From Oscillospiraceae bacterium (GTDB lineage Bacteria; Bacillota; Clostridia; Oscillospirales; Acutalibacteraceae), in NCBI GenBank assembly GCA_015066625.1, contig SVOC01000010.1, positions 1 to 64,000 on the forward strand: 64,000 nucleotides of DNA, in the 5' to 3' direction. The notes beneath the pieces were generated by a model. It was given only the letters and a program-made list of their open reading frames with translations. It ran no database searches and was not told the origin of the DNA. The translations under genes were made by a program, and so were the position numbers. The first letter of the stretch is position 1; each line of letters opens with the position of its first letter. This document shows, piece after piece, positions 2,153 through 25,968 of the stretch.

Positions 2153-2956
2153 TTATTTCTTCTTTGATTTTTCTTCGCTCTTTGCCTGTGCCACATTGTA
2201 GAGAATAAGCAGCAAGAGAATGCTTACAAAAATCAAAGCAGAAAGTGCATACATATCGGGCTTTACCCTTTTCTTTGTCATTGAGAAAATAGCAATGGGA
2301 AGGGTCTGGAAGCCCGGTCCGCTGGTGAAATAGCTGATTATGAAATCATCCAGCGAAAGTGTGAACGCCGTAATCATACCCGTAATCATACCCGGCATAA
2401 TGGAAGGCAGAACAACCTTGAAAAATGCGAAAACGGGTTTGCAGCCCAAATCCTGAGCAGCTTCTGCAAGGTTTCTGTCCGTCTGACGAAGCTTGGGCAG
2501 AACATTGAGAATAATGTAAGGCAGGTTAAAAGTAACATGAGCAATAAGCAGTGTTCCGAAGCCCAGAACAGAATCAATGCCTACCAGTTTGCCCACAAAA
2601 ACGAAAAGAAGCATCATTGAGATACCTGTTACGATTTCGGGGTTCATCATAGGGATATTGGTTACAGCCATAATACCCGAACGGGCAGGACCTTTTCTGA
2701 ACTTATCAATACCCACCGCAGCCGCAGTGCCCAGCACCGTTGCAATAAGCGATGAACACACTGCAAGCACAACGGTATTGGACAGTGCCTTAAGCGTTGT
2801 TTCGTCTTCAAGCAGTGCCTTGTACCACTGAAGCGAAAAGCCGGAAAGCACACTGGTGCTGCTTGTACCGTTAAATGAAAAAACTATCATAACGATAATG
2901 GGTGCATAGAGAAAAAGGAAAACGAGCGTTGTATAAATCTTTGAAGCAACTTTCAT
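2153..2956 (-). CDS. potC: Spermidine/putrescine ABC transporter permease PotC
   Basis: One of two inner-membrane permeases of the polyamine importer, 267 residues with about six membrane helices. The cytoplasmic coupling motif that docks on PotA is visible around LAEAAQDLGCKPVFAFFKVVLPSIMPG (EAA loop, residues ~165-190). A typical PotC feature is LSLDDFIISYFTSGPG near the last helices. The start overlaps the potB stop by 4 nt (ATGA), indicating translational coupling. Confidence 0.96.
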   Translation of the reverse strand: MKVASKIYTTLVFLFLYAPIIVMIVFSFNGTSSTSVLSGFSLQWYKALLEDETTLKALSNTVVLAVCSSLIATVLGTAAAVGIDKFRKGPARSGIMAVTNIPMMNPEIVTGISMMLLFVFVGKLVGIDSVLGFGTLLIAHVTFNLPYIILNVLPKLRQTDRNLAEAAQDLGCKPVFAFFKVVLPSIMPGMITGMITAFTLSLDDFIISYFTSGPGFQTLPIAIFSMTKKRVKPDMYALSALIFVSILLLLILYNVAQAKSEEKSKKK

Positions 2957-3777
2957 ATAACCATGCCCTCCTCATCACCCGAAAAGCGGTTCATAACCGC
3001 CATACAGATAAGAATAAGCACCATAAGAACAAGTGAAAGGGATGCACCCAGATTGTAGTTATATGACTGCTGGAACTGCCTTTCGATAACATCACCGATA
3101 AGGTCAAATGATCCGCCGCCGAGCTTCTGTGAAATATAGAATGTACTTACGGAAGGCACAAAAACCATTGTGATTCCCGAAACTATACCGGGCATACTCA
3201 TGGGAATAATGCATCTGCGGATAACCGTAAGTCTGTTGCCGCCGAGATCCTGACAGGCTTCAACCATACTGTGGTCAAGCTTTGCCATAACGGAGTATAT
3301 GGGCAGTATCATATAGGGCAGAAAGTTATAAACCATACCTAAAATAACTGCACCCTCGGTGTTAATCATATGTATGGGATCAATGCCGATTTTACCAAGC
3401 AGGGAGTTGATGATACCCGTATCCTGCAGAAGTGCCATCCACGAATAGGTTCTGATAAGAAAGCTCATCCACATAGGAAGCATAACAAGCATAACCATTG
3501 TGCGCTGAACCTTTTCGGTGCTTTGCGAAATAAAATACGCAAGAGGAAATGCAATCACAAGGCAGATAAGCGTTGCCACAATTCCGAACCATATAGAGCG
3601 AAGAAATGTGGGAGCATATTTGCTCAGTGCAGTGATATTCTCTGATGTGAAAGCACCTGAGGCATCGGTAAACGAGTAATATACAACAAAAATCAGCGGA
3701 GCAACTATGAACAGCACCGACCACACAATATAAGGCGAAGCAACAAGCTTTGAGCCGAGAGTTGATCGATTGTTCAT
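2953..3777 (-). CDS. potB: Spermidine/putrescine ABC transporter permease PotB
   Basis: Second permease of the polyamine importer, 274 residues with about six helices. The EAA coupling loop is at [33 protein letters not shown] is a motif characteristic of PotB-type permeases. The ATG overlaps the potA stop by 4 nt and its own stop overlaps the potC start, so potA-B-C are translationally coupled on one transcript. Confidence 0.96.
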
Positions 3778-4895
3778 TCCTCTGCCTCCTCTGCGTTTGA
3801 AAGCTCGTCAAATTCTTCACTGAATGAGCTGTAATCGCCGTAAATGCCCGAATATTCAGATTTTTTCATAATGTGAATTGCATCGGGCTCGATAAACAGA
3901 CCGATTTTTGCACCCTCGGGCTGATAATCGGTTGTCTGAATCATCCATTTGAAGCCGCCGATATCAACGATAATCTCAAAATGCACGCCTTTGAAGGTAA
4001 CGGAGGTTACCACACCGCAAAGCATTCCCTTTTCAGGCTCAACAACATCAACATCTTCGGGACGCACAACAACGTCAACTGCTTCGTTTTTGCCGAAGCC
4101 TTTATCAAGACACTCAAAACGGTGACCTGAAAAATCAACAAGGCAGTCATCAATCATAACACCGTCAAGAATATTACTTTCACCGATGAAATCCGCAACA
4201 AAAGCGTTCTTGGGCTCGTTGTAAATATCAAGAGGCGAACCGATTTGCTGAATAACACCGCCGTCCATAACAACTACTGTATCAGACATTGAAAGTGCTT
4301 CTTCCTGGTCGTGGGTAACATAAATAAATGTTATACCCAGCCTTTGCTGAATGTTTTTAAGCTCAACCTGCATATCCTTACGGAGTTTGAGGTCAAGAGC
4401 ACCCAGAGGCTCGTCAAGCAAAAGCACGCGGGGCTTTACAGCAAGAGCTCTTGCTATGGCAACTCTCTGCTGCTGACCGCCTGAAAGCGAATTGATATTA
4501 CGCTTGTTGAAACCCGTAAGGTTAACAAGTGCAAGCATTTCTTCAACGGTTTCTTTTATCTGCTTTTCGGGCACTTTTTTAATTCTCAGACCGAAAGCAA
4601 CGTTTTCATAAACATTAAGGTGAGGAAAAAGGGCATAACGCTGAAAAATAGTGTTAACCTGCCTTTTGTGGGGAGGAACACTATTGATTACTTTATCTTC
4701 AAAAATAACCTCACCCTCATCAGGCTGAATAAAGCCTGCAATAATACGGAGTGTTGTTGTTTTTCCGCAGCCCGAGGGACCCAGAAAAGTTATAAACTCC
4801 TTATCACGGATGTAAAGGTTAAGGTTTTTAAGTACCTGATTATTCCCGAATGTAACGGAAATGTTTTTCAAATCGATAATGGCATTTTTTTTCAA
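3774..4895 (-). CDS. potA: Spermidine/putrescine ABC transporter ATPase PotA
   Basis: ATPase that powers polyamine import, 373 residues. Walker [10 protein letters not shown], signature [15 protein letters not shown] and Walker [12 protein letters not shown] are all present. A C-terminal TOBE-like regulatory domain begins near residue 240, as in other PotA proteins, and ends in an acidic Glu-rich tail. The start is TTG at 4895, with AGGGG about 8 nt upstream. It is first in the operon and has its own consensus promoter at 4958-4986, with a short leader that can form a CCGC/GCGG hairpin at 4920-4931. Confidence 0.96.
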
Positions 4896-5506: not shown

Positions 5507-6538
5507 GTGTTTAACTTTTTGTATGCAATTTTAGCGTTTTTCTTTTCGATTTCATCATTTTTTACCGTGCTTTTCGGAAACAACCTCTGCACGCTGATGG
5601 TAACCTGCAACGAAGAGAGAGGCTATGTGTGGGAATGCGATATTGAAGACGACAGCATCGCAGTTGTAAAAAGCGAAAAAACAGGCAGCACAATTCAGAC
5701 CTTCGTGCTGGAAGGCATAAGCGAAGGTCAGACAGAAGTAACTCTTACAAACAAAAGAGGCGAAACCACCCAATGTATAATTTATTCAGCCGCTGAAATC
5801 AACCCTTATAACGGTAAAACGGAGTTTTATCAGATTTATGTGCTTTACGATTTCGGTACATACATAGGATATGACGAAGGTATAACACTCACCGCGGAAA
5901 CTCCCGTTGAAGGCGGTTATTGGAGTATGGGCTTATCCGATTGGGAGCCTGCACTTGCATCCGACCCTCAAACAATAAACGGTGTCTGCACCTTTGACGT
6001 TATCAACACATCAATGACCGACGAAAAATATGCAACACTTTTCACATATTACGACAAAGACGGCACCCCCCTCGAAACTCAGTTCAAGGCTTACACTCTC
6101 AAAAAAGACGGAACAATTTCTTACACAGACGAAAGCAGACTTGCAAAGGTTGAGCTTCCCGCCGATTTTTCAAAGCTTGAAATGTGGAGAGTTGCCGAAG
6201 ATAACAGCGAAAGCAATGCTGCGGAAATAATAAACATCTATCTGACATCCGACACTTACGGAAGTGTGTATCTTCCCGAGAATATATTCTCGTCAGATTT
6301 GACAGCCATTTTTGAAGAATTGCTGGGCAAGGTTCCCGTTGACGGAACAAGCACGGTTGTTATTGAGGCTCTCAAGGAAGGTACGGCTGAATTTAAGCTT
6401 GAAAAACTTGATATGTATCCCATCATCGCAGACAAAGACGGTTTCTACATTGACATGAATCGCTGTGAAGTTATTGAAACGGTAACAGTTAGCGTAACGG
6501 TTGATGCTGATTTGAACATTACATACGAAATCAAGTAA
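5507..6538 (+). CDS. Secreted protein with chagasin-like (I42) N-terminal region, function unknown
   Basis: 343 residues. It starts at GTG with AGGAGG 7 nt upstream and has an N-terminal hydrophobic segment (residues 1-22) that should act as a signal or anchor. Residues ~35-90 resemble the chagasin/I42 cysteine-protease inhibitor fold: a GYVW motif, an acidic strand, then a TFVLEGISEGQTEVTL stretch matching the family's FxxxALxxGxxxLxL pattern. The remaining ~250 residues are acidic, beta-rich and unrecognised. It sits between a divergent XRE regulator and sigG, whose leader hairpin begins 13 nt after the stop. The inhibitor assignment is a motif-level inference. Confidence 0.75.
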   Translation: MFNFLYAILAFFFSISSFFTVLFGNNLCTLMVTCNEERGYVWECDIEDDSIAVVKSEKTGSTIQTFVLEGISEGQTEVTLTNKRGETTQCIIYSAAEINPYNGKTEFYQIYVLYDFGTYIGYDEGITLTAETPVEGGYWSMGLSDWEPALASDPQTINGVCTFDVINTSMTDEKYATLFTYYDKDGTPLETQFKAYTLKKDGTISYTDESRLAKVELPADFSKLEMWRVAEDNSESNAAEIINIYLTSDTYGSVYLPENIFSSDLTAIFEELLGKVPVDGTSTVVIEALKEGTAEFKLEKLDMYPIIADKDGFYIDMNRCEVIETVTVSVTVDADLNITYEIK

Positions 6539-23467: not shown

Positions 23468-24262
23468 TTACATAAGAACCTTTGAAAGAAATTCTTTGAG
23501 ACGGGCATTCTTAGGATTAGTGAAGAATTCTTCGGGGTTGTTTTCTTCCATAATAACACCCTCATCCATGAATACAACTCTTGAACCCACTTCCTTTGCA
23601 AAGCCCATTTCGTGAGTAACAACAACCATGGTCATTCCCGACTGGGCAAGCTCCTTCATAAGCTCAAGCACCTCGCCTACCATTTCGGGGTCAAGGGCAG
23701 AGGTAGGTTCGTCAAAAAGAATGACATCGGGATTCATTGCAAGAGAACGGATAATGGCAACTCTCTGCTTCTGACCGCCCGAAAGGGTTGAAGGGTAAGC
23801 ATTTGCCTTATCTTCAAGACCGATTCTTGCAAGAAGCTTGCGTGCGTTTTCTTCAGCATCCTTTTTAATCTGCGCAACACTCTGAACAGGTTGCTTATTT
23901 TTTGAGAAGAGATTTTTTATAACAGCCTTTCTCCTGTCTGATTTTGCACAGAGAACGGGAGAAAGCATAATATTCTGAATAACGGTTTTATTGTTGAAAA
24001 GATTAAAGTGCTGGAACACCATACCGATGCGGCGGCGGTGAATATTGATATCAACCTTGGGGTCTGCAATATCAACACCGTTGAAAATAATGTTTCCGCC
24101 CGTAGGGTCTTCCATACAGTTAAGGCAACGCAGAAAAGTTGATTTGCCCGAGCCTGAAGGACCGATAACCACAACAACATCGCCTTTGTTGATGGTGATA
24201 TCAATACCTTTGAGAACTTCATTCTTGCCGAAGCTCTTTTTGAGTTTAATTACGTCTATCAC
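23468..24262 (-). CDS. Polar amino-acid ABC transporter ATPase (GlnQ/ArtM type) with a small insertion
   Basis: 264 residues, ATPase of an amino-acid importer. Walker [10 protein letters not shown], signature [15 protein letters not shown], Walker [17 protein letters not shown]. Between the Q-loop ([13 protein letters not shown]) and the alpha-helical domain there is an extra ~24 residues (around residues 105-130, [14 protein letters not shown]), making it longer than the usual ~240. It overlaps the permease gene by 17 nt. Confidence 0.94.
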
Positions 24263-24953
24263 TCTTCTTCAAGCTCCTTTCCATAAATTTGATAAGCACC
24301 GTAATAAGGCATACGATAACAATATAGATTACCGCCATTGCAAGATACGGAACCATAAATTCATAGCTGTTTGAACCGATATAGTTGAATGCAACATAAA
24401 GGTCTGCAGCACCGATAAATGAAACAATGGAGGTTTCTTTTATAAGAACAATAAATTCGTTGCCCAGAGTGGGAAGGATGTTCTTGACAGCCTGAGGAAT
24501 AACAATCTTCATCATTGTTGTTGAAAAGCTCAGACCTACCGACCTGCCGCCTTCGGTCTGACCGTAGTCAACGGACTGTATGCCGCTTCGCATAATTTCG
24601 GATATGTATGCGCCGCTGTTAAGACCGAAAACCGCAATAGCAACGCTTACGGAAGGCAGATTTATACCCATAAGAGGCAAAGCAACATAATAGAAAAGCA
24701 GAAGCTGAACAACCATGGGTGTTCCTCTGAAAAAGCCTACATAAAATGTGCAGATTGAATTGAGTACTTTGGGAAGAGTTTTATACTTGGGAATAACTCT
24801 TACCGTTGCAATAAGAGTGCCTATAACAATACCGATAACGAGACCGAGAATTGCAATTTTAAGCGTATTTTCAAGACCCTCAATAACCTTGACATAGCCT
24901 TTATAGTCAATGAGAATCTCGATAAATTTATTTATCTTGGCTTCAAAATTCAT
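24246..24953 (-). CDS. Polar amino-acid ABC transporter permease
   Basis: 235 residues with about five helices. HisM/GlnP-type signature: [17 protein letters not shown], then [28 protein letters not shown], which holds the EAA coupling loop. It lies between the binding-protein gene and the ATPase gene in one operon, separated from the former by a stable hairpin that may lower its expression relative to the binding protein. Confidence 0.95.
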
Positions 24954-24975
24954 AGCATTTATCCCTTTTGACAGA

Positions 24976-25002
24976 GTAACCTCACCGCATTGGTGAGGTT
25001 AC
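24976..25002 (-). other. Intercistronic hairpin between binding protein and permease genes
   Basis: GTAACCTCACC (24976-24986) and GGTGAGGTTAC (24992-25002) form an 11-bp perfect stem with a 5-nt loop. No T-run follows on the minus strand. The position just after the most abundant component of an ABC operon fits an mRNA 3'-end stabiliser or partial terminator. Confidence 0.6.
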
Positions 25003-25038
25003 ATCTTCATTTTAATTTAGACCGTTTTACTGCTGAAA

Positions 25039-25908
25039 TTACTGAACAGCGTTGATAGCTTCGGTAATGCAGGTTGCAGGTGCGGAGTCGATGATAACAT
25101 AGTTAAGACCGCCGTTGATAAGATCCTGAACTGCAAGCGAGCCGTTCTTGTAGCCTACGCAAGTTGCTTCGTAGCCTGCAAAGCCCCATTCCTCGTCACC
25201 TTCAACATAGAACTGACCTGTTGTGCCGTTCTGAACACCGATTTTAACCGATGCATCGTATGTATTGAGGATTGCTTCAACTGATGCTGCGTCTGTGCAG
25301 GCATCGAATGTTGTGTCGTCACCCTTTACGATAAGCTTCTGTGATGCCTCGTAGTATGAGTCTGAGAAATTAACATATTCTTCTCTGTCGGGCTTGATTG
25401 TAAGACCTGCCATTGCGATATCGCACTTCTGCTGACCAACGGAAAGACATACTGAATCAAAGTCCATGTTGCTGATTACAAGTTCCATACCCAGTTCCTG
25501 AGCAAGGAGAGCTGCAATTTCCATATCGATACCGTAGTAATCTTCGCCTACAGTATACTCAAAGGGTTCGAATGCAGCGTTTGTTGCAACAACAAGCTGA
25601 TCCTTTGAGGGATCAAGAGCTGCTGACTTAACTGCTGTGGGTGTGCCGTCGCCGAAATACTTGTTGCAGATTTCGTCAAATGTGCCGTCACCCTTAATCT
25701 TTGCGATGAAAGCATTAACCTGTGTAAGAAGTTCGGGCTGGGTCTTATCAACACCAAATGCATACTCTTCCTGAGTAAGCTCAATATCAATAACCTTGAC
25801 AGCCTCTGCTGCGGGGTCTTTTGTTGTGTTGTCGCCGCAGGCAAAAAGTGCGGTTGCAAGCAGAGCAACAACCATCATAACAGAAATAGCTTTAATGAAT
25901 TTTTTCAT
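25039..25908 (-). CDS. Amino-acid ABC transporter binding lipoprotein, circularly permuted
   Basis: 289 residues. Lipobox LFAC with lipidated Cys24. A SBP_bac_3 fold is clear (VVATNAAFEPFEY, GIDMEIAALLAQEL, DIAMAGLTIKPDREEYVNFS). The order is abnormal: the segment that normally ends the family (EEYAFGVDK, LLTQVNAFIAKIKGDGT, EICNKYFG) is at residues ~36-88, directly after the lipobox. The chain instead stops right after YVIIDSAPATCITEAI, where that segment would normally follow. ATG at 25908 has GGAGG 8 nt upstream. It sits upstream of a matching permease and ATPase, so it is presumably functional. Confidence 0.93.
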   Translation of the reverse strand: MKKFIKAISVMMVVALLATALFACGDNTTKDPAAEAVKVIDIELTQEEYAFGVDKTQPELLTQVNAFIAKIKGDGTFDEICNKYFGDGTPTAVKSAALDPSKDQLVVATNAAFEPFEYTVGEDYYGIDMEIAALLAQELGMELVISNMDFDSVCLSVGQQKCDIAMAGLTIKPDREEYVNFSDSYYEASQKLIVKGDDTTFDACTDAASVEAILNTYDASVKIGVQNGTTGQFYVEGDEEWGFAGYEATCVGYKNGSLAVQDLINGGLNYVIIDSAPATCITEAINAVQ

Positions 25909-25939: not shown

Positions 25940-25968
25940 ATTATAACAGCATTTATATTAAAAGTAAA
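25940..25968 (-). promoter_or_regulatory. Promoter of the amino-acid ABC operon
   Basis: Minus strand: TTTACT (25963-25968), 17-nt spacer, TATAAT (25940-25945), with a TGT extension directly before the -10. About 30 nt before the ATG at 25908. Confidence 0.7.

Follow-up and report, generated by a model that had tools for sequence, protein, structure and literature searches.

Can a substrate-binding protein (SBP) of an ABC importer work with the closing segment of its fold moved to the front of the chain? The question is raised by one gene in the window, by which we mean the whole 64,000-nucleotide stretch of clostridial DNA analysed, taken from a 2.37 Mb genome in 32 contigs. The gene is an intact open reading frame (ORF) with an ATG start. 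The original prediction, made from the sequence alone, read its product as a circularly permuted type II binding lipoprotein with its own permease and ATPase. We name the blocks of the canonical fold, in chain order, N-M-C; proteins of order C-N-M are called type A and those of order M-C-N type B. The features of the locus are as follows.

25039..25908, minus strand: type A (C-N-M) permuted SBP_bac_3 lipoprotein gene, 289 aa plus stop
25837..25908, minus strand: signal peptide and lipobox Cys24 (residues 1–24); the Cys, behind a hydrophobic stretch, is invariant in the 31-row alignment A1
25645..25803, minus strand: C block, residues 36–88; second hinge strand, then a strand and two helices; canonically the chain end
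25606..25644, minus strand: linker, residues 89–101, joining the canonical C- and N-termini
25324..25605, minus strand: N block, residues 102–195; the opening part of the canonical chain, with lobe 1 and the first hinge strand
25042..25323, minus strand: M block, residues 196–289; lobe 2, here the chain end, ...DSAPATCITEAINAVQ
24976..25002, minus strand: strong hairpin of 12 base pairs in the gap between the SBP gene and the permease gene (RNA fold z -3.9 over 24955–25038)
24246..24953, minus strand: amino-acid ABC permease, 235 aa (PF00528; HEQRo_perm_3TM above its cut-off)
23468..24262, minus strand: amino-acid ABC ATPase, 264 aa (PF00005; best NCBIfam match GlnQ, below its cut-off)
25940..25968, minus strand: promoter-like site TTTACT-17-TATAAT with TG before the -10; a consensus match alone, the region having 6 such sites where 5.5 are expected

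Block order and distribution

The window protein scores 109.5 bits against SBP_bac_3 (PF00497; cut-off 26.4). A profile score alone does not reveal block order in annotation; the order becomes visible in phmmer alignments to PDB sequences. Residues 102–278 align to residues 22–185 of AncCDT-1 (5t0w; i-E 6.2e-16) and residues 30–85 to residues 191–245 of the same chain (i-E 2.8e-5). AncQR (4zv1) gives the identical crossed order. The N-terminal segment is thus homologous to the normal C-terminal segment, and residues 36–88 (25645–25803) do lie between the lipobox Cys24 and the canonical first strand, as had been proposed. Block profiles run on 1287 shuffled or reversed control sequences returned no C, no N and one M match, so the block assignment is not a product of chance. 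Canonical type II proteins have the chain order N-M-C, from which the window protein departs. It also falls below the NCBIfam cut-offs for TIGR01096 (108.2 versus 256.35), GlnH (106 versus 303), ArtI (79.2 versus 522) and HisJ (46.9 versus 459). Motif residues such as R175, D274 and F113, generally given a role in ligand binding, are invariant in the 31 rows of A1. The window genome has one other match to the SBP, a weak one (L002), with N and C blocks called in canonical order and no M block called.

At the other end of the protein, the chain stops without its usual final segment and nothing continues it downstream, where the next ORF on the strand is the permease (24246–24953). Both points bear out the original prediction, which had named a partial duplication as one reading that would overturn it. 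The N-terminal place of the segment, taken alone, could be read in that way, as an extra C-like segment before an otherwise normal protein, but a second C block was absent from all 50 type A ORFs examined (E up to 10) and the final element of the protein is the last M-block helix, which excludes this reading for practical purposes.

Searches for further proteins of the same order, suggested together with the prediction, showed that C-N-M is widespread in Clostridia. A scan of genome contigs confirmed at least 571 relatives, of which the best 80 were kept. Most of these 80 records are titled as metagenome assembly or uncultured, as would suit an assembly or binning artefact joining pieces of different SBP genes; this idea is contradicted, and has next to no chance of being right, since 80/80 of the kept loci (the best 80 of at least 571) are collinear with the permuted query, including four records that name a strain (Acetivibrio mesophilus N2K1, Eubacterium ruminantium FB3002, Faecalicatena contorta ET52 and Mordavella massiliensis An420c), and both joints and the linker can be aligned across 31 orthologues. 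Two contigs of one metagenome-assembled genome (L106 and L107) carry type A loci with identical scores and coordinates, perhaps a duplicated contig.

Samples at increasing taxonomic distance outline where type A occurs. Within the window's family, matches of at least 50% identity that cover residues 31–284 or more occur in 33 of 200 genomes, counting the window's own, and all 33 ORFs are C-N-M. The class sample yielded full-length matches of at least 54% in 26 of 391 genomes; ten more, at 35–41%, are also C-N-M. Among 299 genomes of the phylum, full-length matches were found only in the window's genome and in G286, of the same class. No type A gene from outside the class was seen among eight loci fetched from the phylum-sample matches, which read as type B, mid-M, canonical or tandem. 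The sample of 60 relatives (37 of the window's genus) contains near copies of up to 97% identity (G961). Carriage in the window's genus is patchy: six of the 36 other genomes have a copy at 84–97%, in a further one the copy is divided between two contig pieces, and full-length matches of 36–59% occur in another four. Viral contigs gave no type A locus and one partial match (L167, residues 100–185).

Operon context and selection

The genes behind the SBP gene encode the remaining parts of an importer. The permease scores 82 bits against HEQRo_perm_3TM (cut-off 42.2), and its best NCBIfam match is a cystine permease, below cut-off. The ATPase scores 122.4 bits against PF00005 (cut-off 25) and matches GlnQ best, at 304.6 bits below the cut-off of 379. 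A cognate permease and an ATPase thus stand beside the SBP gene, the arrangement by which polar amino-acid (PAAT) importers are recognized. Annotation does not fix the substrate because the GlnQ and cystine-permease matches are both below their cut-offs; a polar amino acid would be our guess. The hairpin at 24976–25002 perhaps raises the level of SBP mRNA above that of permease mRNA.

The rotated gene is under purifying selection. For the mature protein against seven relatives, NG86 dN/dS is 0.05–0.19, three of the seven ratios having dS >2.6, near saturation. For the C block alone it is 0.04–0.13 in the five comparisons that gave a value. Such selection on the permuted protein argues that the protein works.

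A rotated protein might instead have become a sensor or scavenger and no longer serve transport. One type A SBP gene (L146) indeed had neither permease nor ATPase found behind it within 4 kb. Across the best 80 of at least 571 relatives, however, a permease follows the type A gene in 78/80 loci and an ATPase in 76/80, and the other misses (L109, L112 and L128) are all at contig ends, so we consider this explanation very improbable. From homology, neighbouring genes and selection, the window protein is very probably a working, naturally circularly permuted type II SBP lipoprotein of a polar amino-acid ABC importer, encoded in an SBP-permease-ATPase operon, much as first proposed.

Changes of block order

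Block profiles of 91 loci gave 44 calls of C-N-M, 31 of M-C-N, 13 of N-M-C and four of other kinds. In the window's class all three cyclic orders are represented. The closest view of a change comes from the genus g194. Of its 78 genomes, 20 match a type A query over its full length and 4 match only weakly; the remaining 54 show a canonical pattern, and for 53 of them a second hit covers the C piece alongside the first. The profile search covered all 30 g194 loci fetched and called C-N-M in 20/20 type A and N-M-C in 10/10 canonical loci.

The two orders occupy the same place in g194. In a blastn comparison of a canonical locus (L229) with a rotated one (L208), the front flank and signal peptide are collinear (32–1462 to 135–1570), the N and M blocks match at 1516–2030 to 1792–2306, the C block matches at 2038–2189 to 1588–1739, and the rear flanks resume collinearity (2232–2296 to 2350–2413; 2623–3531 to 2788–3696). 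Two more canonical/rotated pairs give the same picture, with a block DNA identity between orders of up to 86.9% in the genus. The sequences of the pre-gene region and of an inverted repeat behind the gene are common to both orders. Since the flanks and signal peptide are collinear and the blocks swapped, the rotation took place in situ behind a kept signal peptide. By eye, the g194 inverted repeat, which comes with a T run, looks unrelated to the hairpin of the window.

In a DNA tree of g194, the nine close canonical genes are placed inside groups of type A genes, and this would imply either a return to canonical order or more than one gain; the protein tree leaves the direction unsettled. For type A in g194, with L170 of another genus counted in, the protein tree gives 2 changes and the DNA tree 3.

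Beyond g194, we built a careful tree with the blocks put in one order, using 86 of 119 units and 201 columns. It leaves out 10 long or distant rows (L002, the second ORF of L067, L187, three L186 units, L168, which is type A, and the canonical L070, L071 and L193) and 23 of the 39 rows of the window's clade. Block order, and not the tree itself, determined which units formed the tested groups. On the careful tree, type A and type B each require four changes, every one of them imposed by starred branches, and neither type forms one clade in any bootstrap tree (0/200 for each). A quick tree of all 119 units also gives four changes each, of which starred branches force only three for type A and two for type B. 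AU tests reject a single clade for type A (p 4.06e-6) and for type B (p 2.93e-4). The orders C-N-M and M-C-N each arose several times in Clostridia.

Alternatively, each order may have had a single origin, with later spread by transfer or gene conversion making the tree misleading. The SBP tree does come from 201 columns only, and blocks may differ in history. Against this stand the AU tests and the g194 flanks, which match on both sides in the three pairs compared; we regard a single origin of each order as quite unlikely. One candidate for conversion between types A and B at one locus (from L039, L047 and the related L051) was dropped, the permeases and the SBP tree placing these genes with others. 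Even so, the signal peptide of the type B gene L039 is nearly that of the type A gene L003, and L047 is paired in this way with L006, each pair being of one genus. The mature parts and permeases of the paired genes are distant from each other, as though signal peptides had been exchanged.

Further arrangements occur around the family. A fourth order, cut inside M, is found in three loci of another class (L238, L239 and L240), which begin mid-M and end with M's first part, the profile halves being complementary. Another locus outside the window's class, L241, is type B. Within the window's family, 23 genomes whose best match spans about residues 33–205 are all type B, and in five of these the ORFs are 510–546 aa long with tails that look permease-like by eye; one (L083, the locus of L033) matched the window's permease. 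A viral contig locus (L246) first looked type B and reads canonical. One locus, L067, has two rotated SBP genes about 1.6 kb apart (5522–6433 and 3001–3915), one of another subfamily and one type A. The gene of the other subfamily has C-N called and its M part recognized by eye, so it is type B-like, and is the sister of the window genome's L002 in the quick tree.

Some ORFs hold several binding domains in tandem. L242 is (N-M-C) x2 and L243 (M-C-N) x2, with a permease-like end by eye; the 1000-aa ORF at 1546–4545 of L186 strings together three M-C-N units, one of them with its C block uncalled, ahead of a permease-like tail. A 1224-aa frame in G978:C5 has four matches to the SBP.

The rotations most likely began with an in-frame tandem duplication of the mature domain, after which the outer redundant blocks would have been lost and the signal peptide kept. 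Such duplication and trimming would yield either order, C-N-M or M-C-N. Related importers do contain tandem arrays of binding domains; the fetched loci showed neither a single-domain tandem intermediate nor a leftover scar.

Natural circular permutations are usually regarded as old, single events. Here one protein family has undergone several independent rotations, and g194 holds orders up to 87% identical in DNA, with matching flanks in three pairs. These natural pairs make the steps, folding cost and functional effect of a rotation directly testable.

Fold, tether and known systems

An AlphaFold (AF2) model of the window protein is one compact fold (mean pLDDT 94.5, pTM 0.85), with ten-residue mean pLDDT of 93–98 across the C block. 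The input alignment consisted of permuted sequences only, namely those of the window and 71 of the 80 loci, and the model is therefore not independent of the family. Foldseek and VIA-align, which both keep sequence order, cover mainly model residues from about 75 on, with 10/50 VIA rows beginning at 32–35. The last helix of the M block closes the chain in both the alignment and the model.

Homology and the model together suggest that residues 36–88 dock in the canonical C-terminal position. Docking as in canonical proteins would keep the ligand pocket and the Venus-flytrap closure. Lobe 1 (C and N) and lobe 2 (M) would each be continuous, with one covalent crossover between them, and the second hinge strand would come first in the chain, 13 residues after the Cys that carries the lipid anchor. 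With the hinge strand next to that Cys, the membrane tether would be shifted from lobe 1 to the hinge. Judged by block order, lobe 2 would be inserted in lobe 1 in canonical proteins and lobe 1 in lobe 2 in type B, with neither the case in type A.

The C block could also dock in trans, giving a domain-swapped dimer in place of a fold completed by its own chain. We think this unlikely: the monomer model reaches a pTM of 0.85, and a 13-residue linker is generally expected to be long enough to bridge the neighbouring termini of this fold. Both points are compatible with a dimer too, and a canonical relative, TmArgBP, exchanges its C-terminal helix in a dimer (PMC4022495). One idea about a functional effect of the rotations is that the anchor is shifted from lobe 1 to the hinge or lobe 2. 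Family 3 SBPs of Clostridia and relatives may switch order repeatedly in place, at three or more cut points and sometimes back to canonical, as adaptive re-tetherings by lobe 1 (canonical), hinge (C-N-M) or lobe 2 (M-C-N) that tune hand-over to the permease; this broader proposal is tentative, and we lean against it. The system is also relevant to the influence of anchor position and hinge-crossing number on the closure and docking of binding proteins.

With canonical family 3 proteins (PF00497: GlnH, ArtJ, AncQR and AncCDT-1), the window protein has in common homologous blocks, the lipobox, an adjoining permease and ATPase, and the motif residues. It differs in being C-N-M rather than N-M-C, in probably having one inter-lobe crossover rather than two, and in an anchor beside the second hinge strand.

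In GlnPQ-type importers, tandem binding domains are fused to the permease. The PDB entry 6h30, of this type, reportedly has two complete canonical domains in one chain, as L242 does, whereas the window protein is one domain. A single query stretch (49–237) aligned by phmmer to residues 187–360 of 6h30, running from a C part into the next N part. A tandem chain therefore contains the rotated order and is a possible source of rotation. Clifton et al. (2017) reportedly, judging from the title, permuted reconstructed binding proteins for use as sensors; those permutants are laboratory-made, whereas the window protein is natural.

The original prediction also held that no natural example had been described in this family. 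This holds for type II proteins as far as our full-text search of open-licence literature goes, in which no natural permutation was found described; it needs qualifying for type I, where TpMglB-2 (Tp0684) is a precedent. TpMglB-2, termed 'Type Ic / Cluster Bc', is a naturally permuted, membrane-tethered type I glucose-binding ABC lipoprotein with topology relatives in Gram-positive bacteria, many from the gut (PMC4990184). Its permuted part is 13% identical to its counterpart, it has a fourth hinge crossing, and a tethering role was raised for it (PMC4990184). The window protein is likewise a natural circular permutation of an ABC binding lipoprotein. Compared with the type I sugar-binding TpMglB-2, it has a type II amino-acid fold by Pfam, PDB sequence and fold search, blocks that are all clearly homologous to their counterparts, probably fewer crossovers, and several origins. 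Natural rotation of a binding protein is thus already known for type I; what appears to be new here is its occurrence in type II, together with the unusual number of separate origins.
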